From the NCBI RefSeq assembly GCF_025950085.1, contig NZ_JAPDDS010000008.1:1-64000 (forward strand): a stretch of 64,000 nt of DNA, read 5' to 3'. This document shows positions 9,573-35,647 of this stretch, piece after piece. The stretch is from Luteolibacter flavescens (lineage in GTDB: Bacteria; Verrucomicrobiota; Verrucomicrobiia; Verrucomicrobiales; Akkermansiaceae). The translations under genes and the position numbers were made by a program. The notes under the pieces were generated by a model. It saw only the letters and a program-made list of their open reading frames with translations. It made no database searches and was not told the origin of the DNA. The first letter of the stretch is position 1. Every line of letters begins with the position of its first letter.

Positions 9573-10384
9573 GAGGCTATCTCAAAAGAGCATTGAGGAG
9601 AATGACGGCACAGGCGAGTTCCACCAGGGCTTGGTAGTTCCGTGCCTTGCGTTCCCACCGGCTGACCAGCCGCCGGTAGTTGTGCAGCCAGCCGAAGAAC
9701 CGCTCGACCTTCCACCGCCGCTTGTAGCGCCGCAAGGGCCGGCGGTCTTGGGATTGCCAGCGGTTGCAGCGGTTCGGGGCGATCATTTCCACCCCTCGCT
9801 GCCGCAGTTCTTCGTCGAGCTTGTCGCTGTCATAAGCGCGGTCGCCAATCAGGCGCTCCGGCAGCACTTCGATGAACATGAAGTCGAACAACAGCTGGAC
9901 CAAGCTTACTTCGGCCCGGCCAGCGCTTTCCGTGCAGACGGCGACAGGAAGACCATGGCGGTCGATCATTGCCATGATCTTGCCCCCCTTGCCCTTGCGG
10001 GTGTTGCCAATTCCATCGCCCCCTTTTTCGCCGAGGCGAAGGTCGCATCGACGAAGCACTCACTGACGTCGAGCTTGCCGCGGTCGCGAAGGTCGTCGGC
10101 CAAGGCACGCAGCAGGCCGCGCATGACCCCTTGCTGTTCCCATTCCTGGAAGCACCGGTGGACACCCGTAGCGGGTGGGCAGATCCGCCCACTGGGCGCC
10201 GGTGCGTACGATCCAGAGAATGCCGTTGAGAATGGTCCTGCGATCAGCTCTCGGACGTCCCGTCGGCCCGGTGTTGTCGCTCGGCAGAAGAGGTTCCAGC
10301 ACCGCCCATTGCGCCTCGGTCAAATCCATGAACGAAGCCTGACACACCCGAAATTCGAGTACCAGTGCCTTTTAAGATAGCCTC
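9573..10384 (-). mobile_element. IS5-family insertion sequence, transposase damaged
   Basis: The ends form an imperfect inverted repeat: GAGGCTATCTCAAAAG at 9573-9588 against GAGGCTATCTTAAAAG read inward from 10384. TA dinucleotides flank both ends (9571-9572 and 10385-10386), fitting a 2-base target duplication of the IS427-like group. The element is 812 bases long and holds one transposase gene in two reading frames. It lies between the island's left-end genes and the glycan operon. Confidence 0.85.
9577..10347 (-). pseudogene. IS5-family transposase, frameshifted
   Basis: Three frame segments together make one DDE transposase. The N-terminus (MDLTEAQWAVLEPLL, GILWIVRTGAQWADLP) reads from 10347, allowing a start at the ATG near 10329. 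Near 10175 the match moves to another frame (PPATGVHRCFQEWEQQG), and near 10030 it returns to the first frame after an A5G5 run, continuing through LIGDRAYDSD and RRYKRRWKVERFFGWL to the end. The A5G5 step is a -1 shift, as IS427-like elements use for programmed frameshifting. The earlier step fits a small deletion, perhaps 10 bases lost between repeats, which would inactivate the enzyme (inference). Residues of the DDE triad lie in the downstream part. Confidence 0.8.
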
Positions 10385-10443: not shown

Positions 10444-11100
10444 TCAGCTAGGCTTCTGGTTATCCTTCAAGCATCTCCCTTTAAGAAGAAGTCCACCTGC
10501 AAGAAGTATGAATGAGGTGACGGCAAGCACGTAGATTACCCATGGCTTGATGGTGCTCACTGCGCTTCCTGCGCCGACGGGTATCACGCAGAAGAATGCG
10601 TAGATGGGAGCACCGATCCAGAAGTAGATCCGGAATGGGACCTCGGTGAGCGCGAGGAGATAAAGCTTGATCGCATACGGCGGGCCATGGATCGCCGCGA
10701 ACAGAGCGGTGAACCAGACCTGGTGTTTCGGATCGATCGACGGTATCGCATGGCCCGATCGCGCCAGCTTCTTCGTGAGGCGTTCGCGGAACCACCCGTG
10801 AGTGAGCTGGAAAGCAGCGGCGTTGTGAAAGAAGATCGCTCCGGTGGCCAGAGCCATGCCCCAGGCGAAGCCGAAGCGGATGCCTGCGACCACGAGCAGA
10901 GGTGTGATCGGAAAGCCAACCAGCGGCAGGAACAGAAATGCGGCAATAAAAACGGGCAGCGGAAGACTCTCCGCGAATGCCACAATGGCTTCCCGGTCCA
11001 GCTGCTCGCGGTAGATCCACGCCACCATCGCGACGATGACCACGACGATGAAGATGAGTATCTTCATCCGGTGCTGTCGGATCTGATGGACCAATGTCAT
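10444..11100 (-). CDS. VTT-domain (DedA/TVP38-like) membrane protein
   Basis: This integral membrane protein of 218 residues starts with a helix (ILIFIVVVIVAMVAWIY), then a region typical of VTT proteins: LPLPVFIAAFLFLPLVGFPI, followed by GIRFGFAWGMALATGAIFF, and a re-entrant part ending in two further helices. VTT proteins act in lipid flipping, ion homeostasis or envelope function. It is the last gene of a minus-strand operon; its ATG overlaps the stop of the phosphodiesterase-EEP gene by four bases (11097-11100). The context suggests handling of the lipid or glycolipid produced by the operon (inference). Confidence 0.75.
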   Translation of the reverse strand: MTLVHQIRQHRMKILIFIVVVIVAMVAWIYREQLDREAIVAFAESLPLPVFIAAFLFLPLVGFPITPLLVVAGIRFGFAWGMALATGAIFFHNAAAFQLTHGWFRERLTKKLARSGHAIPSIDPKHQVWFTALFAAIHGPPYAIKLYLLALTEVPFRIYFWIGAPIYAFFCVIPVGAGSAVSTIKPWVIYVLAVTSFILLAGGLLLKGRCLKDNQKPS

Positions 11101-13511
11101 TGGAGCGTGAGTTCTGCGAAGAGCGGCAAATGATCGGAGGCCATCCGGGCCACCGGCGACACCGGCTTCCCTATCCCATCCACAGTGAAGTGTTTGCTGA
11201 CGAAAAGGTGGTCGATCCTGAGAAGCGGGAATGCCGAGGAGAATGTGGGGATCGGCACATGACCCGGCAGCACGCGCTGCACATCCTGGAAACGCCGTTG
11301 GAATCCCTGAAGAGCTCGGGAACGGGGGCCCGAATTGAAGTCTCCCGCCACGACCACAGGCTCAGTCGCCGGTAGCGATCCCAACCATTCATCCCCGAGG
11401 AGCACCTCGGCCTGTTGAAGACGCTCCGCCCGGCCAAGTCCGAAGTGGGTGTTGAGAAAGTGAAACGACCTCCCTTCCTCCGTGGCGACCTTGACCCATA
11501 TGGCTCCCCTCGCCTCCTTAAACAATCGGGGATCCGCCTCTGTGAGATAGCCGGACTTCACGGTCGTCAGCGGGTAGCGGGAGAAGATCGCAATCCCGTA
11601 GCGCTCGCGCTCCTCCTCAAACATCGCGTGAAATACATGGGACATCCGCAGATGTTCAGCGATCAACTGGGCCTGATCATGTCCCCGGCTGCGCACCCGA
11701 TGGCAATCCACCTCTTGAACGGCGACGATATCAGGATCGAAGTGATTGATCACTCTGGCGACCCTTTCGGGCCGGATCTTTCGGTCGAGCCCGACGCAGC
11801 TGTGGATGTTGTAAGTCATCACCCGAAGCGACAGCTCCTTCCTACCTCCCCTCTTCTCTGCGGACTTCTCCTCGGGAATCCCATCGCGATTCAAGAAGTG
11901 ACGGACGATCTTGTGCAGATCTTCACCCCGCACGCGAGCCCCCGTGGCCGGAAGCCTGGCATGATGCCATCGCCGAATGCGGTCGGGCACCAGGAGGAAG
12001 CCTCGCGTTTCCTCAGACCCCGGGCCGCAATGCGCGCCATTCTCCATCGGGAAGCTCAGAGGTTGGCCGTTGGGATTCCATCCGGAGATTACGAGGTCGC
12101 CGGCATTCTCATGGAAGCAGAGTGATACCAAATCCTGAGCCACCTCTTCCAAGAACGGGTGTGAGGCCCCCAATACCTCATCAGCTTGGGCAGGCAGAGA
12201 CCAGGTCCCTCTCGCGTTTGTCGCCTGAACAGTACCGTCCTGCTGCGGGCGAAGGACCAAAGGCACCCCTGCCACTCTGATCAATTCTGTCACGTATCCC
12301 TCAAGCTCGGCGACTGTCAGAGGGCGGGGAAAATAGATGTGCCCAAGCGGCCCCATGGCCGTGACGATCACTTGGCTGTCCGGCTGCGGCACTCCACTGG
12401 CAGCGGAAGTGTCCGGCCGGAGGCCTACGAGGTTGCGAAATCGACCCACCGTATTTCCCAAAAGGTCGGAATTCCTTCTCATCCACACGGCAGTTCCCGC
12501 CATCGGACCGGACGAGAAAACTTCAGCCAAGGCAGCATGCAGCTCACGTCCGTGCTTCCTTTCATAGGGGACCGTATGTTCCTGACCATGGTCCGAATAG
12601 ATGATCACCTCGTAATCGCGATATACCGAGTGATCTCCGGCCCGGTAAATGTCGCGGATTGCCCGGTCGATTCCTTTGAGTGTCCAATGCGCAAATTCGG
12701 ACCTGGGGCCGCGGCGATGCGATTGCTCATCATAGCCGAGAAGGTTTCCATGAATGACGGGGACCCCGCGTTCGATATCCAGGAGGATCCTGAACCGAAC
12801 CGCTTCCCTGAGGATGATGCACACCACCACTCGCGCTGGCACGAATAGCAACTCGCTCAGAGCTTTCTCGCGTGCGTAGAGCCCCTTGAAAGCATCGGCG
12901 ATCGCGATGACGAATTCGAGTGCCGCAAGACCCGCCATACGTAGCAGCTTTGGCAGGTAGGCGATGCCTAGAACAAACCACTTCAACGGATTGGCGCGCC
13001 GCATGACCTCCGTCGACGCAAGGTCCTGCGAACAATAGCGGGTGAAAGACGCGCCTGCCCGGTAGATGTTGGAGTAACTCGATCCATCCTGCAGCAACGG
13101 CTCCTCATTCCGGCTGCGAAGCTCGTCTTCGATCACAGCGGCAGACTCCGCCTCATACATCCGCATCACCTTGCCCGACGCACGATGAAGGAACTGGAAT
13201 CCCGGGACCGCGGCCCGGACGCCGTAGAATATTTCTCCCTGCACTGCAGGCGTCGTAGACGGCACGCCGGAGTAAAAGCTCTCCACGGTGAAATGCTCCC
13301 TGCGGATTAGCTTCGATAGAAACGGAAGATTTCCCTTCGAGATCGCGTGCTCGAATTGGGTTCGCGAGAGGCCGTCAATCTGGACAATGATCAGCCCGGG
13401 ATGGTCAGCTTCGCCTTTTGGCAGCTTCACGCCCAGCAAGTGTGAGGCGAGTCGCGTCCGATTCACGACTCTCCGCAGCCAGCGAAGACGGGCTGTGATG
13501 CGACTAATCAA
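11097..13511 (-). CDS. Alkaline-phosphatase-superfamily phosphodiesterase fused to EEP-family phosphatase/nuclease domain
   Basis: The 804-residue protein joins two hydrolases. Residues about 30-530 match type I phosphodiesterases of the alkaline phosphatase superfamily: a metal Asp in LIIVQIDGLSR, the nucleophile segment SGVPSTTPAVQGE, a metal site in GYDEQSH and another in IYSDHGQEH. A hydrophobic stretch near 175-205 may associate with the membrane. Residues about 560-804 form an endonuclease/exonuclease/phosphatase (EEP) domain: MTYNIHSC, AVQEVD, FLNTHFG, VVAGDFNSGP and the final SDHLPLFAEL are its catalytic motifs. EEP members cleave nucleic acids or phospholipid head groups. Both active sites look intact. 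The gene overlaps its neighbours by 8 and 4 bases, so translation is probably coupled. Confidence 0.85.
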   Translation of the reverse strand: MISRITARLRWLRRVVNRTRLASHLLGVKLPKGEADHPGLIIVQIDGLSRTQFEHAISKGNLPFLSKLIRREHFTVESFYSGVPSTTPAVQGEIFYGVRAAVPGFQFLHRASGKVMRMYEAESAAVIEDELRSRNEEPLLQDGSSYSNIYRAGASFTRYCSQDLASTEVMRRANPLKWFVLGIAYLPKLLRMAGLAALEFVIAIADAFKGLYAREKALSELLFVPARVVVCIILREAVRFRILLDIERGVPVIHGNLLGYDEQSHRRGPRSEFAHWTLKGIDRAIRDIYRAGDHSVYRDYEVIIYSDHGQEHTVPYERKHGRELHAALAEVFSSGPMAGTAVWMRRNSDLLGNTVGRFRNLVGLRPDTSAASGVPQPDSQVIVTAMGPLGHIYFPRPLTVAELEGYVTELIRVAGVPLVLRPQQDGTVQATNARGTWSLPAQADEVLGASHPFLEEVAQDLVSLCFHENAGDLVISGWNPNGQPLSFPMENGAHCGPGSEETRGFLLVPDRIRRWHHARLPATGARVRGEDLHKIVRHFLNRDGIPEEKSAEKRGGRKELSLRVMTYNIHSCVGLDRKIRPERVARVINHFDPDIVAVQEVDCHRVRSRGHDQAQLIAEHLRMSHVFHAMFEEERERYGIAIFSRYPLTTVKSGYLTEADPRLFKEARGAIWVKVATEEGRSFHFLNTHFGLGRAERLQQAEVLLGDEWLGSLPATEPVVVAGDFNSGPRSRALQGFQRRFQDVQRVLPGHVPIPTFSSAFPLLRIDHLFVSKHFTVDGIGKPVSPVARMASDHLPLFAELTLQ

Positions 13512-14790
13512 GGCGCGCTTGTGTGGCTGGAGTTTCGACGACTGCCGCCGTCACAGCCGAGACCTTGGCTGCGAGCAGTTCCCACTCGATCTCAATTCCG
13601 GCGACAAGCCGATCCCACGGTGAACTTTCCGGGGCCTCCCTGGGAGGTTGATCGGAAATCAATCGTGTATAGCATTCGATCATCTTGTCCGAGCAAAGGA
13701 CCCTGTCGTACTCCCGGGCAGAAAGGCGGGCTTCGTCCGCCATCTTTTCGCGCAGGGAAGGATCACCAAGGATCTCGACTAGGGCTTGAGAGAACTGCTC
13801 GGCGCTCGCACAGGCAGCCAGCAATGAGCCATTCGTCCCGTCGCGGACTATCTCACGCACCCCCGGACCGTCGAGGGCCACCACAGGAATCCCTGCTGCC
13901 ATCGCCTCTGCTAGAACGATTCCCTGCGTCTCAGTCTGCGATGCGAAAGCAAAGCAATCGATCGCGGCATATGCGTCCCAAAGGTCCGCCCCTGTCAGCT
14001 TGCCCGGCGCGTGGACGCGGTCTTCGAGCCCTGCTTCCTTGAAGCGGTCGAGCATCTTCCCACGGGAGTCGCCATCGCCGACGAGGAGAAAGATGCTACC
14101 GGGACTAGCCTCAAGGGCGGGAATCAATGCTTCGGCAAGAAATCCCAGGTTCTTTTCGGGAGCGAGGCGGCCGACATGGCCGATTACTGTCGAATCCCCT
14201 GAAATCCCTGCCCGCTTACGAAAGCCAGCCCCATCACCCTTTTCGAAGTTTGCCGGCTCGATGCCTGTCGGAATCGCATGGATCGGAGTCGTCACCCCCC
14301 GGTCGGCCAACAGGTCAGCAATGCTTTCGCTCGGGGCGATGACCGCATCACACAGGTTGCAGTAGTCGGTGGCCAATTGAACGGCCATCCGTTTCAGTGC
14401 ATCCGAATCAAGCGGCACGTAGTGGGTGTAGCGTTCATAGAGAGTGTGATGGGTGAAGACTACAGGAACCTTCATTTTCCATCCCTCACGCAGGGCGGAG
14501 TCTCCGAGAAGAAAGGGATGGTGGCTATGGATGAGGTCCGGCTGGAAATCGTCGAGGAAGTCCCGGACGATGCTCGGCATCGGCAGGCGCACGCAGAAGT
14601 CACTGCCATTGAAGTTCTGGATCGCCGGCACACGTAAGACATGGGGTGAAGGCTCTGCTCCGCTGAATTCGGGGGCGATCACCCTCACCTCGTGACCTCG
14701 CGCCCGGCATGCTTCCTCCAGAGTCTGCACCGACCGCGCTACCCCACCCACATGCGGGAGGTAGGTATTCGTGAACATGGCGATTTTCAT
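13504..14790 (-). CDS. GT4 glycosyltransferase, diacylglycerol-glucosyltransferase-like
   Basis: A 428-residue GT-B enzyme. The N-terminal domain opens with MKIAMFTNTYLPHVGGVARS, the acceptor-side loop of GT4 enzymes, and contains IHSHHPFLLGDSAL and THHTLYERYTHYVPL. The C-terminal domain has IGHVGRLAPEKN and the EX7E nucleotide-sugar motif in ETQGIVLAEAMAAG. The arrangement resembles bacterial 1,2-diacylglycerol 3-glucosyltransferases that make membrane glycolipids. Donor and acceptor cannot be proven from sequence. It overlaps the upstream glycosidase gene by four bases and the downstream phosphodiesterase gene by eight, the middle of a tight operon. Confidence 0.82.
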   Translation of the reverse strand: MKIAMFTNTYLPHVGGVARSVQTLEEACRARGHEVRVIAPEFSGAEPSPHVLRVPAIQNFNGSDFCVRLPMPSIVRDFLDDFQPDLIHSHHPFLLGDSALREGWKMKVPVVFTHHTLYERYTHYVPLDSDALKRMAVQLATDYCNLCDAVIAPSESIADLLADRGVTTPIHAIPTGIEPANFEKGDGAGFRKRAGISGDSTVIGHVGRLAPEKNLGFLAEALIPALEASPGSIFLLVGDGDSRGKMLDRFKEAGLEDRVHAPGKLTGADLWDAYAAIDCFAFASQTETQGIVLAEAMAAGIPVVALDGPGVREIVRDGTNGSLLAACASAEQFSQALVEILGDPSLREKMADEARLSAREYDRVLCSDKMIECYTRLISDQPPREAPESSPWDRLVAGIEIEWELLAAKVSAVTAAVVETPATQARLD

Positions 14791-17015
14791 ACCGGCTCGA
14801 GTGTGAAATTCCGTTCGCTTCCGCTTTCTGTAATCCTCCGGTAGCCGGGAACTGCCACGATCAGACGGGGAGGCTGATCATGCCATGTCGCCTCGATCTC
14901 CAGCCGCCCATCATCGAGGCGAACCGAAACCTGCCCCCACGGAGTCAGTGTCGGCCCAAAGGACATCGGCGAACCCAACCATTCAGGCAGGATCCCGGAT
15001 CCGATCACCAGATGATCTTCTTCCTCCCTCACGAAGCAGCTTCGCATCATCATCAGCCATTCAGCCGCGGCCCACCCATGTTGGCCATCGCCCATGCAGC
15101 CGCCGCCCGTTGACGGGTGAATCGCTTCCGGCCACTGGCCGGTGGGCGAGGCAAGTTCGGCGACGCGACGCACGAGTCCCATGAAACGCGGGTCATCGGC
15201 ACGCAGGAGCGTCTGAGCGAGATCCAAGGTAAGGTAGGCGTTGATACCCGAGTGGATCATCTCCTGAAAGAAGCCCCCGCCGTGGAAGCAGTGATCCATC
15301 AGCCAGTCGAGCGTCGCCATGATGCGGGATTCTCCAGCCGGGTAGAGCTGCAGCGGATAGTCCGCCACCATGGAGCCAATGGCACCGGCATCCATCCTCC
15401 GCCCGGGGGCGGCCGGGATGGCCCCCTTGGACCGGCGTTCCGGAATTGACTCAATGCTCCGGCCGATGTCTGTCGCAAACCCTTTAGCCAGCTTTTCGGC
15501 TTCCTCGGCAATCTCGTGCTGCTCGTGGCGACGCCATTCCCTCGCCATCGCGGTCAAGCCCCCCCATGCCCAGAAATCATCCCAGTAGTAGTAATCGTTA
15601 GGCCCGAGATGTTCGGCACTGAAACCTGCGGGAAGCAGACCCCGTGTGCCTGCGGGATCATCCTTTGTCAGTCGCTTCTTCGCGAGCCAGCGGACAGCTT
15701 TTCTCAGCGCTTTATCAAGCTCCGGGTCCGGCAATCGGTGGCGAAGCGCACATTGCCGTGCGGCGATCCACAGGACCTGGCCATTCGAGTCCCACTCTCC
15801 TTCCTGTGAAAGGAAATAGCCTGCCGCGGTCTGCCGCGGAGCAAACTTTCCGATGATCCTGTCCGCGGCCTCCGGCAGCCCGAGCGTGAGAAGCGGGTGG
15901 AGCATTAAGCAGGCATCCCGGAACCAGAACCGGCGGTAAGTGTAGGGACCTGGTACCAGTTCGTCCGCAGACAGTAGCACGACGGTCCTCATCGCCGCGT
16001 CATAGAGGAACTTCATGCGGCTATCGGCCACTTCCAGCCGAGCGGTGCCTTTCAATGCTTCCGTCCATGAGCGCCTACGTATTGCGCCGCGTCCCAGATC
16101 CCGCTCAAGCGAGACCGAAACCGACAGTTCCCGCGGCTTCCCGGCCTCGATGCGGAACAGCGCTGCGGCTGTCGCCATACCGGTGCTGCAACTGACCTGC
16201 TTCTGGTCCTTGTCACCCGGCAGGTTCAGGTAAACGTCACCTTCCGCATAATGGGCCATGCGCAGGGATACGGGAGCTTCACCGAAATCCACGGTGGCCT
16301 CGTCGTTGACCCGGAAGGCTTTCCCCGACGCCTCCATCTCAATCTTGTGAACGAACTGAATGCCTTCCGGATTGTAGGGACGTATCGCGACCACCAGCCA
16401 TCCGTCTTCCTGGGCCGATGCACGGATACTCGTACTAGCCTTGGGAGCTTCATCGGGACGACCGACCATCTGCGTCACGAGCTCCAGTTCCATCTCATTT
16501 GATCGGGAGACCGTCCGGATCTTCAGGTCATCGGAGAAATCGAGCTGTTGGGTGACTGCGGACTCGTCGAGCTTGCTTGGCAGAAGTCGCTTGCGGGACT
16601 CGGTGACGATCCAGAAGTCCAGTGACCAGCCATCATGCAACGGTGTCACCAGGCCCCTTGGATCGACGATGGGATAGGCCGCGACGTCAGGCATTCCCAC
16701 CGCGGTCCAATTCCTGTGAGTAAGATTGATGTGGCTAAAGGAGAATGCCCGGGGGACGAAAGAAGGCGATGCAGGATTGAATTGCTGCTCCACCCAATGA
16801 GGCCATACCCAGTCGAGATTGTGCTGAATCGCCTTGGCATTCACCAGTCCACGGGCATGAAAGACGATGCCCGCGCGAAGCAGCTCAAATGGCTCTGCCA
16901 CTTCCGATGGCTGTGCAAACCCACGGATGCGAGCCATCACCGTCGCAGGATCCAGAACGCCGTAGCGACGGGCGGCATGCTTCACGAGAAACTTCCAAGG
17001 TAGCAGATTCAGCAT
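14787..17015 (-). CDS. Six-hairpin (alpha/alpha-toroid) glycosidase-like protein
   Basis: This 742-residue protein has an N-terminal beta-rich part (to about 310) and a C-terminal alpha/alpha toroid. Typical active-site-like stretches are TYRRFWFRDACLMLHPLL, GEWDSNGQVLWIAA, YYYWDDFWAWGG and GQWPEAIHPSTGGG, as in amylo-alpha-1,6-glucosidase or GH15-type enzymes. No signal peptide is seen, so a cytoplasmic substrate is likely. It is the first gene of the four-gene operon, with the stop overlapping the glycosyltransferase start. It may hydrolyse or trim the glycan handled by the neighbouring transferases; exact specificity is unknown. Confidence 0.72.
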   Translation of the reverse strand: MLNLLPWKFLVKHAARRYGVLDPATVMARIRGFAQPSEVAEPFELLRAGIVFHARGLVNAKAIQHNLDWVWPHWVEQQFNPASPSFVPRAFSFSHINLTHRNWTAVGMPDVAAYPIVDPRGLVTPLHDGWSLDFWIVTESRKRLLPSKLDESAVTQQLDFSDDLKIRTVSRSNEMELELVTQMVGRPDEAPKASTSIRASAQEDGWLVVAIRPYNPEGIQFVHKIEMEASGKAFRVNDEATVDFGEAPVSLRMAHYAEGDVYLNLPGDKDQKQVSCSTGMATAAALFRIEAGKPRELSVSVSLERDLGRGAIRRRSWTEALKGTARLEVADSRMKFLYDAAMRTVVLLSADELVPGPYTYRRFWFRDACLMLHPLLTLGLPEAADRIIGKFAPRQTAAGYFLSQEGEWDSNGQVLWIAARQCALRHRLPDPELDKALRKAVRWLAKKRLTKDDPAGTRGLLPAGFSAEHLGPNDYYYWDDFWAWGGLTAMAREWRRHEQHEIAEEAEKLAKGFATDIGRSIESIPERRSKGAIPAAPGRRMDAGAIGSMVADYPLQLYPAGESRIMATLDWLMDHCFHGGGFFQEMIHSGINAYLTLDLAQTLLRADDPRFMGLVRRVAELASPTGQWPEAIHPSTGGGCMGDGQHGWAAAEWLMMMRSCFVREEEDHLVIGSGILPEWLGSPMSFGPTLTPWGQVSVRLDDGRLEIEATWHDQPPRLIVAVPGYRRITESGSERNFTLEPV

Positions 17016-17302
17016 CGAGCTTCCCGTTTCGCAGATGATGTTCCATCCATAATTCGGTCGAGAAAGAGCCGTCGCCGATTCAATCGTGACGAGAATCTCC
17101 TCACGCTCTCCCGATATTGCAAACAGGGGAAAGCCATTGGGCCAGGTTACTCACGTGCAAAAAGCGATGCCTGGGATCTATTTTGCATCACTTCCTGCCC
17201 TCTCCAAATCGGTCATCCCCTTCCCTACAGCATATCACGCGACGGCACGCCACGGGCTGGGGCGGGTGCATGGAATCAGGCACGTCGACCGGGCGGGAGA
17301 AA
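17016..17302. promoter_or_regulatory. Divergent promoter region between two glycan operons
   Basis: About 290 bases separate the glycosidase start (17015, leftward) from the glycosyltransferase start (17303, rightward). The frame of the rightward gene stays open here, but the segment has no family match and is best taken as the shared regulatory region. I cannot assign promoter boxes with confidence. Confidence 0.4.
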
Positions 17303-19573
17303 ATGCACTTCGGATCTAACGACTCGAACACACGGAAGATTCGCAAGCTGGTTGTCCTGGGAAACTACGTCCCCAAGCGATGCGGTATCGCGACATTCAC
17401 CGAAGATCTTTACCAAGCCGTTACGAGCGCGGACCCCTTGTTGGACTGCTCGGTGATCGCAATGGGCGACCGATCAGACTATCCTCCCGAAGTCGCACTC
17501 ACCATCGACCCATCGGACACGTCAGCCTACCAGCGTGCAGCCGATTACGTGCGGGAAGTTGGAGCAGATGCCCTCTGCGTTCAGCATGAGTTCGGAATCT
17601 ACGGGGGGGCGGCCGGGAGCTACCTCATGCCTCTGTTGCGTCACGTGAAGGTCCCCGTGATTACTACCCTGCACAGCATCCTGCGGACGCCGGACATCGC
17701 CCAAAGGAAGGTGATGGACGAACTTGTCCAGAGAAGCTCGCGGTTGGTGGTAATGGCGGAGAAGGGAGCTGAAATCTTGAGCGACGTTTACGGCGTGGAT
17801 CGGGCCATGATCGACGTCATCCCTCATGGTGTCCCCGACTTCCAATGGTCGGAAAGCGATCCATCCAAAAAAGAACTGGGATATACAGGTAAGAAGGTGC
17901 TTCTGACCTTCGGACTTCTTGGACCCGGTAAGGGAATCGAATTTGCCATTCGGTCCATGCCGGCCATCGCCAAACGCCATCCGGAAGCGCTCTACGTCGT
18001 CCTCGGGGCCACGCACCCGAATCTCGTTGCCCACGAAGGTGAGAGGTATAGGGAGAGCCTCCAGCAGCTCGCGGATGATCTGGGAGTAACCTCTCACGTC
18101 CATTTCGAAAACCGCTTCGTCGATATGCTGACATTGAAGCGCTACATCGCAGCCGCGGATATCTATCTGACCCCCTATCCCAATCAGGCGCAGATCACGT
18201 CGGGAACATTGGCGTATGCATTCGGTGCCGGCAAAGCGGTCATATCAACGCCGTACTGGCATGCTCAGGAACTGCTCTCCCGAGGCGGGGGGCTGCTGGT
18301 CGAGCCACGCGATGCCGGGGCCATCAGCACGGCGGTCAACCGTCTTCTGGATGACCCGGTCGAAATGGACCTCCTTCGAAGGACCGCTTTCAAGCAAGGG
18401 CGCGAGATGACTTGGACCCGAGTCGGGGAACTCTATTTGGACAGCTTTGGGAACGCAGCCGCCGGAACACCCCTCGACCATCCGGCACCCTCGATCCGGA
18501 GACTCGAAGATCTGCCGCCGCTCAAACTGGATCACCTGGAGCGCCTGACCGATCGGACCGGCCTTTTCCAGCATGCGACCTTCGATATCCCCAATTACCA
18601 CGAGGGCTACTGCACTGATGACAATGCCCGGGCCTTCATCCTCACCGTCCAACTCGAGTCAGCAGCAGCGCAGCCTGCGCTCAGATTGATGGCCAGCACC
18701 TACCTGGCGTTTCTCGCTTCAGCATTCAACCAGGGGAATGGTCGGTTCCGTAACTTCATGAGCCACTCAAGACAGTGGCTGGAAGAAGCAGGCAGCGAGG
18801 ACAGCCATGGCAGGGCGCTGTGGGCTGTTGGAAGAGGGGCGGCCGGATCGCGCCGTGATGGGTGGCGCCTTCTGTGCATCGACCTTTTTCAGCGCGGTCT
18901 GCCCGTGGTAGAGCATTTTTCCTCTCCCCGGGCGTGGGCGTTCGCGCTGCTGGGAATGCAGGAGTACCTGAGTGCCTATCCAAGCGATCTCGGTGTCCAC
19001 CGGCTGAGAGGCATCATGGTCGAGCGCCTGCTGAAATGTTGGCAGGAGTGCGCCGGAGACGAGTGGAACTGGTTCGAGGATGTTCTCACCTATGATAACG
19101 CTCGCATTCCCCAAGCACTGATACTTGCCGGCAGCGAACTGCCTGAAAGTGGTGCCTTGGAGGCCGGTCTTGCCTCCCTTGAGTGGTTAATGAAGGTGCA
19201 GACTGCCGATTTTGGCCACTTTCGTCCAATTGGTAACAATGGCTTCTACAGCCGCGATGGAGACCGGGCGGACTTCGACCAACAACCGCTGGAAGCCCAG
19301 GCCACGGTGGCTGCATGCCTATCCGCATGGCAGGTGACCGGCGAGTCTTCCTGGCTGGATGCTGCCAAGCGGGCCTTCGAATGGTTCCTGGGGCGCAATG
19401 ACGTGGGCCTCCCGCTCCATGACGCAGACACCGGGGGCTGCTGTGATGGCCTGCAACCTGATAGGGTCAATGCAAACCAAGGCGCGGAGTCATCATTGGC
19501 ATTCTCCCTTTCCCTCGCCGAACTGCGCGATGCCATGGCGGCGAAAACCGAGACCGTGAAACAGATCGCATGA
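17303..19573 (+). CDS. GT4 glycosyltransferase fused to alpha/alpha-toroid domain
   Basis: The start at 17303 follows GGGAG and gives 756 residues. Residues about 15-385 form a GT-B glycosyltransferase: LGNYVPKRCGIATFTEDLYQ at the start, HEFGIYGGAAGSYLMPLL, DVIPHGVPD, LLTFGLLGPGKGIEFAI and ITSGTLAYAFGAGKAVISTP. After a linker, residues about 410-745 form a helical toroid domain (YHEGYCTDDNARAF, WNWFEDVLTYDNARIPQAL, DFDQQPLEAQATVAAC) resembling glycosidase or epimerase toroids. Such fusions commonly neighbour GH130 genes, as here: the stop overlaps the GH130 start by four bases. The product is probably a mannose- or glucose-based glycan (inference). Confidence 0.78.
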   Translation: MHFGSNDSNTRKIRKLVVLGNYVPKRCGIATFTEDLYQAVTSADPLLDCSVIAMGDRSDYPPEVALTIDPSDTSAYQRAADYVREVGADALCVQHEFGIYGGAAGSYLMPLLRHVKVPVITTLHSILRTPDIAQRKVMDELVQRSSRLVVMAEKGAEILSDVYGVDRAMIDVIPHGVPDFQWSESDPSKKELGYTGKKVLLTFGLLGPGKGIEFAIRSMPAIAKRHPEALYVVLGATHPNLVAHEGERYRESLQQLADDLGVTSHVHFENRFVDMLTLKRYIAAADIYLTPYPNQAQITSGTLAYAFGAGKAVISTPYWHAQELLSRGGGLLVEPRDAGAISTAVNRLLDDPVEMDLLRRTAFKQGREMTWTRVGELYLDSFGNAAAGTPLDHPAPSIRRLEDLPPLKLDHLERLTDRTGLFQHATFDIPNYHEGYCTDDNARAFILTVQLESAAAQPALRLMASTYLAFLASAFNQGNGRFRNFMSHSRQWLEEAGSEDSHGRALWAVGRGAAGSRRDGWRLLCIDLFQRGLPVVEHFSSPRAWAFALLGMQEYLSAYPSDLGVHRLRGIMVERLLKCWQECAGDEWNWFEDVLTYDNARIPQALILAGSELPESGALEAGLASLEWLMKVQTADFGHFRPIGNNGFYSRDGDRADFDQQPLEAQATVAACLSAWQVTGESSWLDAAKRAFEWFLGRNDVGLPLHDADTGGCCDGLQPDRVNANQGAESSLAFSLSLAELRDAMAAKTETVKQIA

Positions 19574-21033
19574 AAAAGATCCCACTCCGCCGGCACGATC
19601 TCAACCTGTCCCCGGAAAGCTCACGGGTCATCATCCGCCCTTTCATCCCGGGAGATGCAAAGCGGATCACGACGGTAATCGGGCGCACCTTGGCCCTATC
19701 CGAGGACGAGGTTGCGCAGCAGTTGGCTGACGTGAAGGCCGAGTTTCAGGAGCGGCATTTCGACATTGATTCACTGCTTCTCCAGCACTATGCCAAGATC
19801 GAGTCTCACGTCTTCACCCACCGAGCCCTGTCCCATCAGCGCAAGCTACTCATCGGAGCTCTTTTCTCGGGAGAATACGCCCTTGAATCGGCGGCGCTTT
19901 TCAATCCTTCCATCGTGCCACATCCCGTGCAGGACGGTGTGGCAGAAGGTGCCCTCCGGTTTGTGATGAGCCTTCGCGCGACGGGAGAGGGTCACATTTC
20001 TTCCATCGAGTTCCGCAGCGGCCAGATCCACGCCGACGGAGGAATACACCTTGATCCTGTCACCCGCTTCGTGACGGTCCCCGAGGTCTTGCCGAACCCC
20101 TCCTACGAAAAGGAAAGCTTCCGGAGCAAGTTGCAGGAAATGGGCTTCGAGAACGAGTGGACGCCCGAACTGCTGGAATCGCTAGGGGATCACTTCTCCC
20201 GCAGCGAATTGAAGAACACCATCCGCCACCTCCGACACCAGAACAAGAATCCGTCACGAGACCTGTCACGCACGCTGGAATGCGTGATGTGGCTGGCTGA
20301 CTCGAACTACGAGCTTCGGTTTTCCGACAAGCTCGCGATGAGCGAGCGCATCCTCTTCCCGGTCTCGTCCAATGAAAGCAATGGCATCGAGGATGCGCGC
20401 TTTGTCCAATTCGTCGAAGATGACGGATCAGTGATCTATCGTGCGACCTACACCGCGTACAATGGCAGGGCGATCTTGCCCCAGATGATCGAGACCAAGG
20501 ACTTCCTGGACTTCCGGGTGCTGACCTTGAACGGGAATGCCGTTCAGAACAAGGGGATGGCGCTGTTCCCCCGGCGCATCCACGGGAGCTACGTGATGCT
20601 CTCCAGACAGGATGACGAGAACCTCCTGATCATGTTCGCGAACGATCCCCACCACTGGAACGACCCGGAAATCCTCATGAAACCCGCGGAGATGTGGGAG
20701 TCCGTCAAGATCGGCAACTGCGGGTCACCGATGGAAACGGAGGAAGGTTGGCTCGTCCTCACGCACGGCGTGGGGCCGATGAGAAAATACTGCATCGGAG
20801 CCGCACTCCTCGACTTGGATGATCCCACCCGAGTCATCGGCAGACTGAAGCGTCCGCTACTGTCGCCAGAAGGAAACGAGCGGGAGGGCTACGTCCCCAA
20901 TGTCGTCTATAGCTGTGGAGGATTGATTCACAACAATACCCTCGTACTTCCCTACGCCATGAGCGACAAGGCTTCCGCTATAGTATCCGTTCCTCTCGAC
21001 CAACTTTTGAAAGAGTTGAAGGCTGGAGCCTAA
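19570..21033 (+). CDS. GH130-family glycosidase/phosphorylase
   Basis: This 487-residue protein has the GH130 five-bladed beta-propeller signature: ESAALFNPSIVPHP early on, then SNESNGIEDARFVQF, YRATYTAYNG, IGNCGSPMETEEGWLVLTHG and GYVPNVVYSCGG. The family includes beta-1,2-, beta-1,4-mannoside phosphorylases and hydrolases; the catalytic Asp is in the GIEDARF region. Whether it hydrolyses or phosphorolyses cannot be told by eye. It overlaps the fusion glycosyltransferase gene by four bases, implying one transcript and a make-and-trim pair for the same manno-oligosaccharide or glycan (inference). Confidence 0.85.
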   Translation: MKKIPLRRHDLNLSPESSRVIIRPFIPGDAKRITTVIGRTLALSEDEVAQQLADVKAEFQERHFDIDSLLLQHYAKIESHVFTHRALSHQRKLLIGALFSGEYALESAALFNPSIVPHPVQDGVAEGALRFVMSLRATGEGHISSIEFRSGQIHADGGIHLDPVTRFVTVPEVLPNPSYEKESFRSKLQEMGFENEWTPELLESLGDHFSRSELKNTIRHLRHQNKNPSRDLSRTLECVMWLADSNYELRFSDKLAMSERILFPVSSNESNGIEDARFVQFVEDDGSVIYRATYTAYNGRAILPQMIETKDFLDFRVLTLNGNAVQNKGMALFPRRIHGSYVMLSRQDDENLLIMFANDPHHWNDPEILMKPAEMWESVKIGNCGSPMETEEGWLVLTHGVGPMRKYCIGAALLDLDDPTRVIGRLKRPLLSPEGNEREGYVPNVVYSCGGLIHNNTLVLPYAMSDKASAIVSVPLDQLLKELKAGA

Positions 21034-21122: not shown

Positions 21123-22640
21123 ATGGGAGCACGAAATCGCGTGGTAATTGTCGGGGCGGGACCGGGTGGGCTTACCGCCGGGATGATTCTCGCCCGACGC
21201 GGATTCGACGTCACCATCTGTGAAAAGCAGGAGCGCGTCGGCGGGAGGAATGCAGAACTGGCATTCGACGGATACTCCTTCGATACCGGTCCGACTTTCC
21301 TGCATCAGAAGTTCACGCTCGACGAGGCCTTTGAAGAGGCTGGCCGACGGTCGGACGACTATCTCGATTTCAGGCTGCTGGACCCGATGACCCGCCTGTC
21401 GTGGGGTGAAACCTCGATGGAGACCACTCCAGACCCGCAACGGATGGCGGAGAACATCGAGCGCGCCTTCCCAGGAAATGCGGATGGCTTCCGTCGGTTC
21501 ATGCAGGACCACGCCAAGAAGATGCGGACGATCTATCCGTGCCTCCAGCGTCCCTACCATGAGTTGCGTGCCTACCTCAACACCACACTACTGAAGGCCC
21601 TTCCTTACGTGGCCACCACGAATTCCGTTGTCGACGTGCTTGACCGCTACTTCACGGATGACCGGTTGAAGCTGGCCTTCACCTTCCAGGCGAAGTATCT
21701 CGGGATGTCGCCTTGGCGGTGTCCCGCGCTCTTCAGCATTCTCTCCTACACCGAATACAAGTTCGGCATCTATCACGTGCAGGGCGGCCTGTGCCGTATC
21801 TCCGACGCGATGGCGCGGGTCTTCGGAGAGCATGGCGGGAAGCTGAGGCTGGGATGTCCTGTGAAGGGACTGCGATTCAGTGGCAAGCGGGTCACCGGAG
21901 TGGAGCTGGCCGATGGCGAGTTGCTTGAATGCGATGAGGCAATCCTCAATGCCGACTATGCCCATGCCGTCACCACGCTGATGGGCAAGCGGGCGGAGGC
22001 GCCCGCCAAGCTCGAGAGGAAGAAATTCTCCTGCTCCACCTTCATGCTCTACCTCGGGCTGGACAAGGTCTACGACGACCAGGCGCACCACCACATTATC
22101 TTCGCAGACGACTACCACCGCAATGTCGAGCAGATCCAAGGTGAGCAAGAGATCTCACGGGACATGTCGATCTACGTGCGGAACTCCTGTGTCTGCGACC
22201 CGCTCGTCGCGCCAAAGGGTAAATCCGGTATCTACATCCTGGTCCCGACCATTAATACCCGCCACGGCCTCGACTGGGAGAAGCTCGCGCCGGAGTATCG
22301 CGAGCAGGTGCTGGAACGTGTCGAGCAGCGCACCCAACTAAAGGACCTGCGGCAGCACATCGTGGCCGAGCGCATGCTGACACCGGCGTCTTGGCGCGAC
22401 GGCTTGGATGTCTTCATGGGAGCCACCTTCAATCTCGCCCACACCCTGGACCAAATGCTCTACCTCCGTCCGCACAACCGCATGCGGGGATACGAGAATC
22501 TCTACCTCGTCGGCGGCGGCACTCATCCAGGAAGCGGCCTGCCCACCATCTATGAAAGCGGTCGCATTTCATCGAACATGATCTGTGACAAGCGAGGCGT
22601 GGCCTACGAAAGATCCGATCTCGCGGGGGCGTTGCTGTAG
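21123..22640 (+). CDS. Carotenoid desaturase/oxidase, CrtI/CrtN-like (first copy)
   Basis: This FAD-dependent amine-oxidase-fold enzyme has 505 residues. The dinucleotide fold VVIVGAGPGGLTAG opens the protein, followed by EKQERVGGRN and GYSFDTGPTF. The C-terminal motif LVGGGTHPGSGLPTIYESG is the hallmark of phytoene and dehydrosqualene desaturases. In C30 pathways such enzymes insert double bonds in dehydrosqualene or oxidise a terminal methyl group. Its 3' end overlaps that of the convergent acyltransferase gene by 37 bases (22604-22640). The second copy at 24128-25627 is diverged, so the two probably catalyse different steps. Confidence 0.86.
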   Translation: MGARNRVVIVGAGPGGLTAGMILARRGFDVTICEKQERVGGRNAELAFDGYSFDTGPTFLHQKFTLDEAFEEAGRRSDDYLDFRLLDPMTRLSWGETSMETTPDPQRMAENIERAFPGNADGFRRFMQDHAKKMRTIYPCLQRPYHELRAYLNTTLLKALPYVATTNSVVDVLDRYFTDDRLKLAFTFQAKYLGMSPWRCPALFSILSYTEYKFGIYHVQGGLCRISDAMARVFGEHGGKLRLGCPVKGLRFSGKRVTGVELADGELLECDEAILNADYAHAVTTLMGKRAEAPAKLERKKFSCSTFMLYLGLDKVYDDQAHHHIIFADDYHRNVEQIQGEQEISRDMSIYVRNSCVCDPLVAPKGKSGIYILVPTINTRHGLDWEKLAPEYREQVLERVEQRTQLKDLRQHIVAERMLTPASWRDGLDVFMGATFNLAHTLDQMLYLRPHNRMRGYENLYLVGGGTHPGSGLPTIYESGRISSNMICDKRGVAYERSDLAGALL

Positions 22641-23110
22641 CGGTGTCGGTACTTTGCCAGCAGGCGCTCGAAGCGGATGCGGTTGTAGCGCTGGATCGCT
22701 ATGCAGGGCAAGTTGAGCAGCAGTAGGGCTGAGACCATGACGGCGTCGGCCCATAAAGGATTCCACAGAAAGAAGACCGGTCCCGTTGCCAAGGCGGCCC
22801 AGTGGCAAGCTTCCCCGCGCCGGGTCTCCACGACGAAGCGGCGCAGATGGGAAGGATCGCCACCCTTCAAGGAAGCCTTGGAAAATCCCCCACGAAACCA
22901 ACTCGCGCCGTCGGGCATCAGGTGTTTCCAGCGCTTCACCGCTAATAACTTTGCAAGCGTGCTCTCCCGAAGATCCGACGATGCCGCCGGAGGTCGCTCA
23001 AAAATTGTGGCAGGCATGCGGGTGAATGCCCATGCCAGTCCCATCTGCATCGCCGGAAGGCCGACGGCATTCAGGGCAATCGTCCACCCCAGCGGTAACT
23101 CAAGGAGCAT
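22604..23110 (-). CDS. CrtO-like carotenoid acyltransferase
   Basis: About 168 residues from the ATG at 23110. It resembles glycosyl-4,4'-diaponeurosporenoate acyltransferase, the last enzyme of staphyloxanthin synthesis: the conserved segments are VKRWKHLMPDGASWFRGGFS, ETRRGEACHWAAL and PVFFLWNPLWAD. Hydrophobic helices at both ends make it an integral membrane protein. The enzyme esterifies the sugar of a carotenoid glycoside with a fatty acid. Its start overlaps the end of the glycosyltransferase gene by 11 bases and its 3' end runs into the convergent desaturase gene. Confidence 0.82.
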   Translation of the reverse strand: MLLELPLGWTIALNAVGLPAMQMGLAWAFTRMPATIFERPPAASSDLRESTLAKLLAVKRWKHLMPDGASWFRGGFSKASLKGGDPSHLRRFVVETRRGEACHWAALATGPVFFLWNPLWADAVMVSALLLLNLPCIAIQRYNRIRFERLLAKYRHRYSNAPARSDLS

Positions 23111-24143
23111 GGAGACTCCTCCCCTTCCACGTGGCCTTCTTTCCGGCCGGACCAAGAGATCGGATGAAGACGGTCAGATAGAAGACGAGCAAGACCGGGT
23201 AGAGCAGTCCCGCGACCATCGGAAAATTTCCAACGCGCCTCAACATCGCGACCATCAGTAGGGCGAAGGCACCATAGACACACCACCCCCATGGAGTAAC
23301 GAACGGCGCGACCATCCCGAAAATTAGGCCGCTGATCCAAACCGAAATCAGCGCCACGGTGGAGCCAGCCGTAGAAGCAACTCCTGCTGCGAAGCCCTTT
23401 GTCCATCCCTCGATCATCTCACGCGGGCCCCCAGCATACATCCGGAAGTTCAGCACACCCTTTCCCGGCATCGCGGAGGTCGCTCCACCAGTCGCCCGGA
23501 TGCGCGGGCAAAAATTCACATTCTCAAGGATGTTTCCCTTAACGGCCTCGTAGCCGCCGGCCTTCTGATAGCTTTCGCGATCAATCAGCAGGCACTGGCC
23601 GAAAAGCCCGTGCGGCACGGTGCTCGCCACCATGACGATGTTGAAGATGGCTGATCCCCATTCATACGGCCTTTCCACCACGTGGAACGGACATACCGCC
23701 AAGGCACCTCCCGCATAGCGCCTCAGAACCGCCTCAAGCCCTCCAGGCTCGAAGCGACAATCGGCATCTAGGAACATCAAAAGTCTCCCGCGAGCCTCGT
23801 CAGCCCCGCGGGCACACGCCCAAGTCTTCCCGCGCCAGCCCTCGGGAAGCGGTCCGGGGCCGATCACCCGGGCACCGGCTGCGCTGGCGATTTCAGGGGT
23901 ACCATCGCTGGAGTCGTCATCGACCACGATCACCTCAATGGGCTGTTGGGACTGAATGGCGATCGACTCCAGGAGCAGCGGCAGGTTCCTCGCCTCATTT
24001 CGCGCCGGGATCACGATGGACACCTCGCGTGCCATCCCCCGCGTTCCCGCACCCGACGCAGGGACCTGTAGGCGACGGAGCAAGCCGAGCGACATCAGCC
24101 ATGCCACGCCCCCTAGGGAGCAGATGATCAATTCCGGTCCCAT
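23100..24143 (-). CDS. CrtQ-like family 2 glycosyltransferase
   Basis: This GT2 enzyme has 347 residues, from an ATG at 24143 inside the last codons of the upstream desaturase gene. After an N-terminal membrane helix (LIICSLGGVAWLMSLGLL) comes the GT-A fold: VSIVIPARNEARNLPLLL, VIVVDDDSSDGTPEI, MFLDADCRF. Two or three helices at the C-terminus anchor it. The layout matches 4,4'-diaponeurosporenoate glucosyltransferase of staphyloxanthin synthesis. An open upstream extension to 24512 lies wholly inside the neighbouring gene and lacks family features. It is coupled to the acyltransferase gene downstream. Confidence 0.84.
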   Translation of the reverse strand: MGPELIICSLGGVAWLMSLGLLRRLQVPASGAGTRGMAREVSIVIPARNEARNLPLLLESIAIQSQQPIEVIVVDDDSSDGTPEIASAAGARVIGPGPLPEGWRGKTWACARGADEARGRLLMFLDADCRFEPGGLEAVLRRYAGGALAVCPFHVVERPYEWGSAIFNIVMVASTVPHGLFGQCLLIDRESYQKAGGYEAVKGNILENVNFCPRIRATGGATSAMPGKGVLNFRMYAGGPREMIEGWTKGFAAGVASTAGSTVALISVWISGLIFGMVAPFVTPWGWCVYGAFALLMVAMLRRVGNFPMVAGLLYPVLLVFYLTVFIRSLGPAGKKATWKGRSLHAP

Positions 24144-25627
24144 TCCACGATCTTGTCGGAAACATTCTGCCCGCACTGGACCACCATCGGCATCCCCCCT
24201 CCCGGATTCACCGATCCGCCGACGAAGAAGAGGTTCGGGTACCGCGTGCTCTGCTTCGGTGCCTTGAACGAGAAATTCTTGAACCGGTCCGAGACCACCC
24301 CGTAGATCGATCCTTTGTTCGAGTTGTATTGCTCCCGGATGTCGTGTGGCGTCCAGAGGTGCTCGACGACGACGCGCCTCCGCAGGTCGTGCAGCCCCAT
24401 GCGCTCCAGCTTGTCGAGGACGCGCTCCTTGAATGCCGCGTAGTCGTCCGGGCCGAGCGGATTCGCGTCGTCGATGTAGGGGATATGTGGGAGGATCTTC
24501 AGGGTGTCGCATCCGGGCGGTGCGACAGATGGATCGCTTCGGGATGCCGCCACAAGGTAGATCGTGGGATCATCAGGCAGACGGCGTTTCTTGAAGACAC
24601 TCCGGAAGTGCTGCTTCTGATCCGCAGAGAAGAAGAAATTGTGATGAGCGAGCTGCGGGTAGGTCGTGTCGAGCCCGAGTTCCAGGACCAACCCTGAGCA
24701 AGATGGCTCGTATCGCTCCAACGATTTCATGAATGCATCATCCTCTCCCAGAAGCTGCTGATACGCGGGAATGACTTCCATGTTCGACACCACAATGTCT
24801 GCGGGATGGAGGACGCCGTCCCCCGTGACGACGCCCGTGACCCGGTCGCCATCCCGGCGGATCTCCCGCACCGGGCTGTCGACCGCGACCTCGATGCCGA
24901 GTTCTCCCATCAGCTTTCCCAGCCCGGTGGCGATGCCATAGAGGCCTCCGGGGACGTACCACAGATCGTGCCGGAACTGGATCGCCGGGAGGCAGTTCAT
25001 GAAAGCGGGAGCCCGGTAAGCGGAAGAGCCCACATACTTGATGAAGTAGTCGAAGATCGCCCGCATCTTCGCCGTCTTGAGGTGCCGCTTCACTCCACCA
25101 TGCATCGTCCGGAAGAAGTCGAACTTGGTGAACTGCAGGAAGCCGTAATGCCGGGAGAAGTCTTTCGCGGTGTCGAGGCCCTCCTGGAAGTACCCTTCGT
25201 CCACCAGATCGAAGAGCCTGCCTGAATACTCCAGGAAGCGTTTCACCGCCGCAGGGTCTTCTCCCGCTTTCGTCGCTTCCACACCCATCACCTCCGGATC
25301 GGGATGCAGGTCGATCGAGATTCCATCCTCGAAGAAATTCCGCCAGTGCGGCCGGACCGGCTGGATGGAGATATAATCCTCCATCCTTTTGCCCGAACGC
25401 TCAAACAAGCGCTCGAAGATGTAGGGCAGCGTGAGGATGGAAGGCCCCAGATCGAAGGTGTAGCCATCACGACGAAGCACGTTCAGCTTTCCACCGATCT
25501 GGCCGTTCTTTTCGAAAATGCTGACGCGATAGCCCTGCTGAGACAGCGAGATAGCCGCGGAGATGCCGCCCAATCCTGCTCCAATGACGATCACGTGTTT
25601 CTTTTCTGGGGGCTTTCCGATCACCAC
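24128..25627 (-). CDS. Carotenoid desaturase/oxygenase, CrtN/CrtP-like (second copy)
   Basis: A 499-residue FAD enzyme: HVIVIGAGLGGISAAISL forms the nucleotide fold, EKNGQIGGKLNVL and YTFDLGPSILTLP follow, and FFVGGSVNPGGGMPMVVQCG is the C-terminal signature. This end resembles diapolycopene/diaponeurosporene oxygenases (CrtP/CrtNb) about as well as desaturases (CrtN). In a C30 pathway such an enzyme makes the terminal aldehyde that the neighbouring aldehyde dehydrogenase could oxidise. The start is a GTG at 25627. It is first in a three-gene operon with the glycosyltransferase and acyltransferase genes. Confidence 0.85.
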   Translation of the reverse strand: MVIGKPPEKKHVIVIGAGLGGISAAISLSQQGYRVSIFEKNGQIGGKLNVLRRDGYTFDLGPSILTLPYIFERLFERSGKRMEDYISIQPVRPHWRNFFEDGISIDLHPDPEVMGVEATKAGEDPAAVKRFLEYSGRLFDLVDEGYFQEGLDTAKDFSRHYGFLQFTKFDFFRTMHGGVKRHLKTAKMRAIFDYFIKYVGSSAYRAPAFMNCLPAIQFRHDLWYVPGGLYGIATGLGKLMGELGIEVAVDSPVREIRRDGDRVTGVVTGDGVLHPADIVVSNMEVIPAYQQLLGEDDAFMKSLERYEPSCSGLVLELGLDTTYPQLAHHNFFFSADQKQHFRSVFKKRRLPDDPTIYLVAASRSDPSVAPPGCDTLKILPHIPYIDDANPLGPDDYAAFKERVLDKLERMGLHDLRRRVVVEHLWTPHDIREQYNSNKGSIYGVVSDRFKNFSFKAPKQSTRYPNLFFVGGSVNPGGGMPMVVQCGQNVSDKIVEWDRN

Positions 25628-25697
25628 GTGCGACTATCGCGCGACTTCCCTTTTTTGCTAGAGAATCTCCTGCTCGCGCCGATGATGGCTGACCTTC

Positions 25698-28511: not shown

Positions 28512-28561
28512 AATCGACTCGTCCGGCGAAACGTCGGTTCATCATGGAATGATGTCTGCGA

Positions 28562-35220: not shown

Positions 35221-35647
35221 GGTCTGATGTTGGTGTTTCTGGGGCTCCAGGAACCCGGCCGCGGCTATTGCAGAAAACAGGCCCTTCCGGTCACCCTGGC
35301 TCTGATGCGCTGCCTGCAAGGGCTACACGTCCGGGAGGCTAGAGGCCGCAAGGTTCACCCAAGCGCACGATGCACGTCCGGTAATCTCAAAATGCAGGGA
35401 TGGTGCCCGGCGAGGCATGAAGTAAGGCGTCGCCTCCCAGCTGGTTGGAGACGCGGAGGACAAAACGACGGGCGATTGTGTCCTGAGAATCTATCCCGCG
35501 TGGACGACGAGAGCCCTTCTCCCGTGCAAACCGCAAGCCGGGCGTGCAATTGTTATTCATGCCGATGGGCGGCAGCCGATCTATGGGTGAAGAACCAAGG
35601 ACTTACCCGTCATCAAGGCGTGGCATGGTGCATGCAAACGACCGCCC
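35221..35647. other. Intergenic region of about 430 bases
   Basis: No gene is visible between the DUF6799 gene and the DUF1328-like gene. A plus-strand frame that runs through is a non-coding extension of the DUF883 gene's frame. Promoters for the flanking divergent genes are expected here. Confidence 0.4.

Follow-up and report, generated by a model that had tools for sequence, protein, structure and literature searches.

A divergent six-gene locus of Luteolibacter flavescens most likely comprises two separately conserved modules, one of them a candidate stress-survival envelope cassette

Two operons of glycan- and lipid-type genes stand back to back in the 64,000-nucleotide stretch of Luteolibacter flavescens DNA analysed here (the window: contig NZ_JAPDDS010000008.1, positions 1 to 64,000, from a genome of 5.9 Mb in 71 contigs), and they raise the question of whether their six genes serve one pathway or two. 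The leftward operon, on the minus strand, is led by the gene of a predicted glycosidase, here called GHx (14787-17015), followed by those of a GT4 glycosyltransferase (13504-14790), a double phosphoesterase that fuses a PDE to an EEP domain (PDE-EEP, 11097-13511, TTG start) and a VTT/DedA-like protein (10444-11100). On the plus strand, a GT4-toroid fusion gene (17303-19573, its open reading frame (ORF) being open from 17117 and the family alignment beginning at the ATG at 17303) precedes a GH130 gene (19570-21033); the other limits are ORF calls. By these ORFs, the joints overlap by 4, 8 and 4 bases in the leftward set and by 4 bases in the rightward pair, and the start codons at 17015 and 17303 lie 287 bp apart. 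A preliminary description of this DNA, made from the sequence alone, had the six genes, their order, their small overlaps and the two divergent operons right. Its domain names hold for GT4, PDE (PF01663), EEP (PF03372) and GH130 (PF04041), all above curated cut-offs, and less well for VTT (PF09335), which scores below; its toroid is confirmed by profile and predicted fold, and its glycosidase has no Pfam or NCBIfam match but a glycosidase-like predicted fold.

Conservation was compared in 18 genomes of the genus, the window's own included, and in 337 genomes sampled from the phylum, where GH130 matches were counted at E ≤ 1e-60. Strong GHx matches occur in 10 of the 18 genus genomes and GH130 in 11; eight genomes hold both halves of the locus, two only the left, three only the right and five neither, one of the left-only genomes being 72% complete and one of the right-only genomes 61%. 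The phylum sample yielded 18 full-strength GHx matches plus a partial one, and GH130 in 31 genomes. Among the 11 genomes of both sets that carry both halves, these are adjacent in one, the window's genome. On four single-contig genomes the halves are separated by between 147 kb and about 3 Mb, and the one-contig genome G010 has them near 4.57 Mb and 1.17 Mb; G003, G006, G007, G008, G009 and G015 have them on separate contigs, and outside the genus they are separated by 147 kb (G284), about 520 kb (G123) and about 560 kb (G134). In the flanks of 80 named GH130 loci, tblastn (E ≤ 1e-6) listed no left-half gene, a count that is weaker evidence when taken alone, many of the contigs being short. 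Because the halves adjoin in only one of the 11 genomes that have both, we reject the single six-gene pathway, with one product for both operons, that had been proposed: the six-gene set was looked for in other genomes, and none of the other ten with both halves has them adjacent. The halves are most likely two separately conserved, unrelated modules, neighbours by chance of genome order. The tight coupling noted at the outset is real and conserved within each half and not between them, which corrects a plausible reading of such loci, in that tight overlaps speak for coupling inside each operon and not across divergent neighbours. Overall, we think it probable, with moderate confidence, that the locus joins two unrelated modules, a rightward pair for a mannose oligosaccharide and a leftward membrane-glycolipid, stress-survival cassette.

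GHx and a full-length PDE-EEP are found in 10 of the 18 genus genomes, in the four-gene order of the window. The 8-base overlap of GT4 and PDE is kept in all 10 genus operons (the window and nine loci) and in G284, and the 4-base overlap of GHx and GT4 in eight of the 10, with gaps of 181 bp (L096) and 29 bp (L097) in the remaining two; because they are kept across genus operons, these overlaps are more than chance. The PDE gene starts with TTG in nine of the operons and with GTG in one. The four genes also occur together in G284, G054, G134, G178, G046 and G081, the VTT gene lying on the opposite strand with a weak match (27-31%) in five of these six, and in G301, G123 and G126 other genes, including kinase-type ones, separate GHx from GT4-PDE. 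Several partial sets weigh against a fixed four-gene unit: GHx-GT4-VTT in G051, GHx-GT4 in G259, G343 and G219, GT4-PDE-VTT lacking GHx in G248, PDE-VTT alone in G169 and, counted together, GHx and GT4 with no full PDE in four sampled genomes. Since partial and split sets occur across genomes, the left half is a loosely modular cassette.

A link of this cassette to stress is moderately supported, and independently of the adjacency seen in the preliminary description, by the genes that accompany it. In the window, Ku (27223-28128) and LigD (28562-30907), both on the plus strand, begin about 10 and 11.5 kb from the left operon, and LigD, with or without Ku, lies no more than about 4 kb from it in G003, G007, G009 and G015, which places LigD near the operon in five of the 10 genus genomes that carry it; in G010 the two are some 2.7 Mb apart, and the other four operon-bearing genus genomes gave no LigD match. 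Other neighbours, at one to three loci each, are CheR with a hybrid kinase, SodC, topoisomerase IB and KdpD. Two smaller observations concern the same region: G003, G007 and G009 each hold two or three LigD copies, and in the window a DDE transposase ORF (9577-10059) adjoins the VTT end of the operon, where four relatives carry LigD or Ku-LigD.

The second line of evidence is a sigma54-like motif, TGGAACATCATCTGCGA, that lies 13 bp before the GHx start (17029-17045, minus strand). In its first form, TGGAAC-N6-TGCRA, it precedes GHx at no more than one mismatch in six of the 10 genus operons, compared with a base-shuffle mean of 0.016 (maximum 1), and these six operons belong to the six genomes with full LigD matches; in relatives it also precedes three copies of LigD and two of CheR. 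A wider form, TGGMAY-N6-TGCRA, was chosen after the site directly before the window's LigD ORF (28545-28561, plus strand, with TGGAAT) and a site in G284 had been seen. It matches five times in the window against 0.28 expected, 28 times in the window's genome against 15 for the reversed motif, and 17 times in the 220.5 kb of left-module islands, where 1500 shuffled motifs average 0.62 and reach 10 at most; the sites that had suggested the motif make up two of the five window matches and eight of the 17 island matches, and one of the other nine (L097:6042) was already known at one mismatch. The 169 kb of right-module loci hold three matches, a number that 44 of the 1500 shuffled motifs reach. 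Seven of the 28 genome sites lie just before an ORF of at least 150 residues, as do 5.4% of random positions. The starts that follow genome sites within 0-130 bp are those of LigD, a DUF1328-like and then a DUF883-like gene (both below the Pfam cut-off), an oxidoreductase, DUF892 (YciF-type), Hsp20, DUF4142, fasciclin, a response regulator, a glycine-zipper protein and DnaK (about 96 bp), and other sites precede nothing recognisable. Because LigD, CheR and further stress genes have the motif in front of them too, the left module in the six motif-bearing genus operons is most likely a stress-survival envelope cassette.

Several points weigh against this reading of the motif. The first form was itself defined after the GHx and LigD sites had been seen, and at one mismatch or less it is missing from four of the 10 genus operons and from all 13 operons outside the genus. 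On the GHx tree the six motif operons fall into two groups, with a support of 0.203 at the deciding node, and the six copies may share descent in one clade. Across the genus the first form has 99 matches against 153 for the reversed control, hence no genome-wide excess. Part of the genome sites are probably chance, since 20 of the 28 fall inside ORFs of at least 150 residues, some of these ORFs being perhaps spurious. With the longest-ORF start as reference, the outermost sites lie 13 bp inside the ORF and 76 bp ahead of it, and for about half of the 17 in the islands no start of this kind is in range.

As to what would act at these sites, we infer sigma54 from the form of the motif. The spacing of sigma54 promoters is that of their -24 and -12 elements, and the motif keeps the GG of the former and the GC of the latter, 10 bp apart; when its halves are set at spacings of 4, 5, 7 or 8, each spacing gives at most one match in the window and at most one in the genus left-operon loci. 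The genome also has rpoN (PF04552 at G000:C3:500584-501057, 192.8 bits against a cut-off of 22.8). The available text of one source gives the elements as tGGcacg and tTGCt (PMC4641369), with which the motif agrees well at GG and GC and poorly after them, its TGCGA departing from tTGCt, a further point against sigma54; the available text of another links sigma54 to envelope synthesis (PMC3162934). It is quite possible, if short of probable, that the motif instead serves a transcription factor or a different sigma factor. Its ending in TGCGA or TGCAA would then need no reconciling with the published -12 element, a gene with sigma70 regions 2 and 4 is at hand at 1268-3223, and some sites lie inside ORFs; the GG/GC spacing that fits -24/-12, the scarcity of matches at altered spacings and the presence of rpoN speak for the sigma54 promoter instead. 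We propose, tentatively, that these Verrucomicrobiota have a general stress regulon under a sigma54-type promoter, which would comprise non-homologous end-joining (LigD), chaperones (Hsp20 and perhaps DnaK), proteins of the YciF/DUF883 type and a hitherto undescribed glycolipid cassette, to which a new glycosidase family of GH15 fold and a double-headed PDE-EEP phosphoesterase belong. If the motif is such a promoter, the stress response of a little-studied phylum becomes directly testable.

The four proteins suggest what the cassette might do. The window's GHx matches neither Pfam nor NCBIfam, and no PDB entry at E ≤ 1 with either the protein or a profile; the GH15 profile PF00723 is likewise absent from it and weak in four of the 19 family members (best E 0.00039). 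Its predicted model (predicted local distance difference test (pLDDT) 82.4) consists of a beta-sandwich and then an (alpha/alpha)6 barrel, as in GH15, GH65 and GH94 enzymes, for example 1lf6 (Z 30.6, 3.1 Å, 521 residues); the listed structural matches share only 8-15% identity and no family profile matches reliably, and the rows of the fold search are many, tied and divergent, so that GHx is assigned to none of these GH families in particular. D479 and E630 are the same in all 19 members and may correspond to the catalytic acid and base known from GH15. We describe GHx as a predicted cytosolic glycosidase, unclassified by family. A distant relative (30%) is encoded at G000:C7:194691-196592, in a frame of 1052 residues, and in its G010 counterpart an F5/8 type C domain is accompanied by a weak match to a rhamnosidase-type hairpin.

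The left GT4 exceeds the curated cut-offs of PF13439 and PF00534 and has E287 and E295 invariant in 17 of 17 sequences. In PDE-EEP, which exceeds those of both its domains, the alkaline phosphatase (AP)-type set D46, T87, D261, H265, D307, H308 and H494 and the EEP set N568, E600, H689, D724, N726, D793 and H794 are invariant in 15 of 15, their roles being those presumed for such domains, and a hydrophobic stretch (residues 186-246) lies within the PDE domain. The VTT/DedA-like protein has hydrophobic segments, and its gene adjoins the operon in relatives. From these families, a membrane-associated PDE-EEP would strip a lipid of its phosphate head group, the GT4 would add a sugar to the freed lipid acceptor, the VTT protein could move the lipid across the bilayer and GHx would trim or recycle the sugar. 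The left module is thus likely to make and trim a membrane glycolipid, whose acceptor, sugar and order of reactions we infer. The two best NCBIfam matches of the GT4 are lipid glycosyltransferases, which speaks for a lipid acceptor, with 156.9 bits for MGlcDAG synthase (cut-off 400) and 107.7 bits for GlcN-PG synthase (cut-off 480). Two points weigh against this: both of these scores fall far under their cut-offs, and the VTT protein reaches 27 bits on PF09335, below the gathering score of 33.9.

It is rather unlikely, though worth weighing, that the substrate of the left operon is instead a glucan or oligosaccharide, either soluble or linked to polyprenyl, and that the phosphoesterase attacks the carrier, sugar phosphates or nucleotide phosphates and not bulk lipid. 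The enzymes closest to GHx in fold have mostly soluble glycosides as substrates, MshA, BshA and GlgM are further matches of the GT4 profile, and GHx and GT4 recur without PDE in four genomes; on the other side stand the VTT-like membrane protein, the hydrophobic stretch of the PDE domain and the lipid acceptors used by the two best NCBIfam GT4 matches. Phosphate-saving lipid remodelling, with PDE-EEP replacing PlcP, is improbable. We take PHO-box control to be a trait of plcP-agt systems, and it was not found for the left operon: no PHO-box match at four mismatches or fewer occurs in 10 of 12 upstream regions, and a single four-mismatch match in the other two, so phosphate control was set aside for want of a convincing PHO box in these regions. 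Several neighbours are, moreover, stress and DNA-repair genes. The resemblance lies in a phosphoesterase gene beside a GT4 lipid glycosyltransferase gene, as the available texts describe for Agrobacterium, SAR11 and Methylosinus (PMC8231724, PMC9239053). The phosphoesterases themselves belong to different superfamilies, PlcP being a metallophosphoesterase of another kind and the left operon having an AP-type PDE fused to EEP, and unlike plcP-agt this operon has GHx and VTT in addition and stress genes as neighbours. Last, a single six-gene pathway to one stress-protective glycolipid or manno-oligosaccharide is hardly credible, for although the halves adjoin in the window and mix synthesis and breakdown functions, they are adjacent in one genome of 11, either is found without the other, and the motif lies 5' of GHx on the GHx strand with no site listed before the window's GT4-toroid gene.

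What the preliminary description had said of that product divides between the modules. Its membrane glycolipid suits the lipid-type functions of the left half, and its stress role gains support for the left half only, from LigD/Ku neighbours and a shared promoter-like motif; its beta-mannosides are the compounds on which the right half is predicted to act.

The rightward pair is a unit in its own right. A GT4-toroid gene, whole or cut, is near GH130 in 77 of the 80 named GH130 loci, and in the other three (L084, L086, L090) the contig begins inside GH130. The record titles are mostly of Verrucomicrobiota and otherwise of Deltaproteobacteria, KSB1, Acidobacteria, Aminicenantes, Margulisbacteria, Planctomycetes and others, most of the loci being metagenome bins; the nearest is that of Haloferula sp. 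BvORR071 (82%). The two genes usually overlap by 4 bases, are convergent in L074-L077 and L088 and are parted by two genes in L073. No widely recurrent neighbour was found, the largest neighbour clusters covering at most seven of the 80 loci; the one neighbour tied to the pair is a GT4 in five loci, three of them also with a short GH130. Extra short GH130 genes stand beside the pair in L072, L073, L078 and L081, with another GT4 in the first three, and recall the two-GH130 cluster of Thermoanaerobacter.

The fusion protein has a GT4-type Pfam domain (PF13692), and the GT-B fold that was looked for is present in its predicted model (pLDDT 82.5, predicted template modelling score 0.58): residues 13-390 match 6kih with Z 35.8. 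Residues 405-750 form a toroid that matches 7tem (Z 33.9, 3.0 Å over 324 residues), also by profile (E 6.3e-11); the Foldseek list for the whole protein was filled by its glycosyltransferase domain. The 7tem entry is YPO2471, titled a putative exported protein, which shares the toroid, here fused to GT4. The EX7E motif, which we take to be a hallmark of GT4, was placed by eye and is not intact: its first position is Gln295 in the window and Glu in most aligned relatives, and its second is Leu303 in all 22 aligned rows, which weighs against an ordinary GT4. With the second Glu replaced by Leu, the donor chemistry may therefore be unusual.

The window's GH130 (119.4 bits on PF04041, gathering score 26) has a long N-terminal part and aligns best with beta-1,2-mannoside phosphorylases. 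The catalytic D275 of the EDxR motif is invariant in all 22 aligned rows, as are R346, H399 and the pair N327-K328. Position 380 is Lys in 13 rows, the window included, Gln in eight and Asn in one, these last nine speaking against a phosphorylase; R346, K380 and H399 are the residues that we take to bind phosphate. K328 aligns with a Lys of 9fj8, 5b0p, 7fip and 9eqq, where TM1225 has Arg, and may be equivalent to Lys199 of BT3780. In the available text of PMC4599007, phosphorylases are distinguished from hydrolases by three basic residues, and Lys199 is discussed; that of PMC8950772 describes TM1225 as a beta-1,4 enzyme. Compared with the phosphorylases Teth514_1788/1789 and Lin0857, the catalytic Asp, the basic residues and the beta-1,2 Asn-Lys align, whereas the long N-terminal part and the variable Lys 380 set the window's family apart. 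The alignments point to a beta-mannoside, probably 1,2-linked, as the substrate, which GH130 would phosphorolyse to mannose-1-phosphate, and the pair would build and recycle a cytosolic mannose-containing oligosaccharide, the product and the direction being suggested by family. We know of no product for the GT4-toroid/GH130 pair.

In the available text on Thermoanaerobacter (PMC4264767), Teth514_1786-1789 likewise cluster a GT4 with GH130 beta-1,2-mannoside phosphorylases, but with two GH130s, a transporter, a GH5 and GDP-mannose genes; the pair described here has a single long GH130, a GT4-toroid fusion and no widely recurrent neighbour. Neither module, nor the motif in Verrucomicrobiota, was described in the open-licence PMC articles that we searched, non-exhaustively, by titles and the starts of abstracts, subscription papers and preprints lying outside this search. 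The analysis defines two reusable units: the GT4-toroid/GH130 pair, whose record titles span several phyla, and, in Verrucomicrobiota, the cassette that combines an unclassified glycosidase with a double phosphoesterase.

Downstream of GH130, the interval 21123-27080 holds carotenoid-type genes (a CrtI-like desaturase, a CrtO-type acyltransferase, a GT2, a second amino-oxidase-type gene and an aldehyde dehydrogenase). These genes look like a carotenoid-glycoside cluster; as possible members of the cassette or pair they were dropped, no CrtI, CrtO or GT2 match being listed in 92 loci. Three further copies of the motif lie in the window. One (35621-35637) is 10 bp before a DUF1328-like gene, which is followed by DUF883-like and holin-X genes, another (57240-57256) is 10 bp before a GFO_IDH_MocA oxidoreductase (56066-57229), and the third (47928-47944) precedes a small ORF (47955-48161). 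That ORF and another at L202:1034-1249 begin 9-10 bp past the motif with the shared start MSxRFLLKSAGFxAVxSVL, and their likeness spans the first 24 residues.

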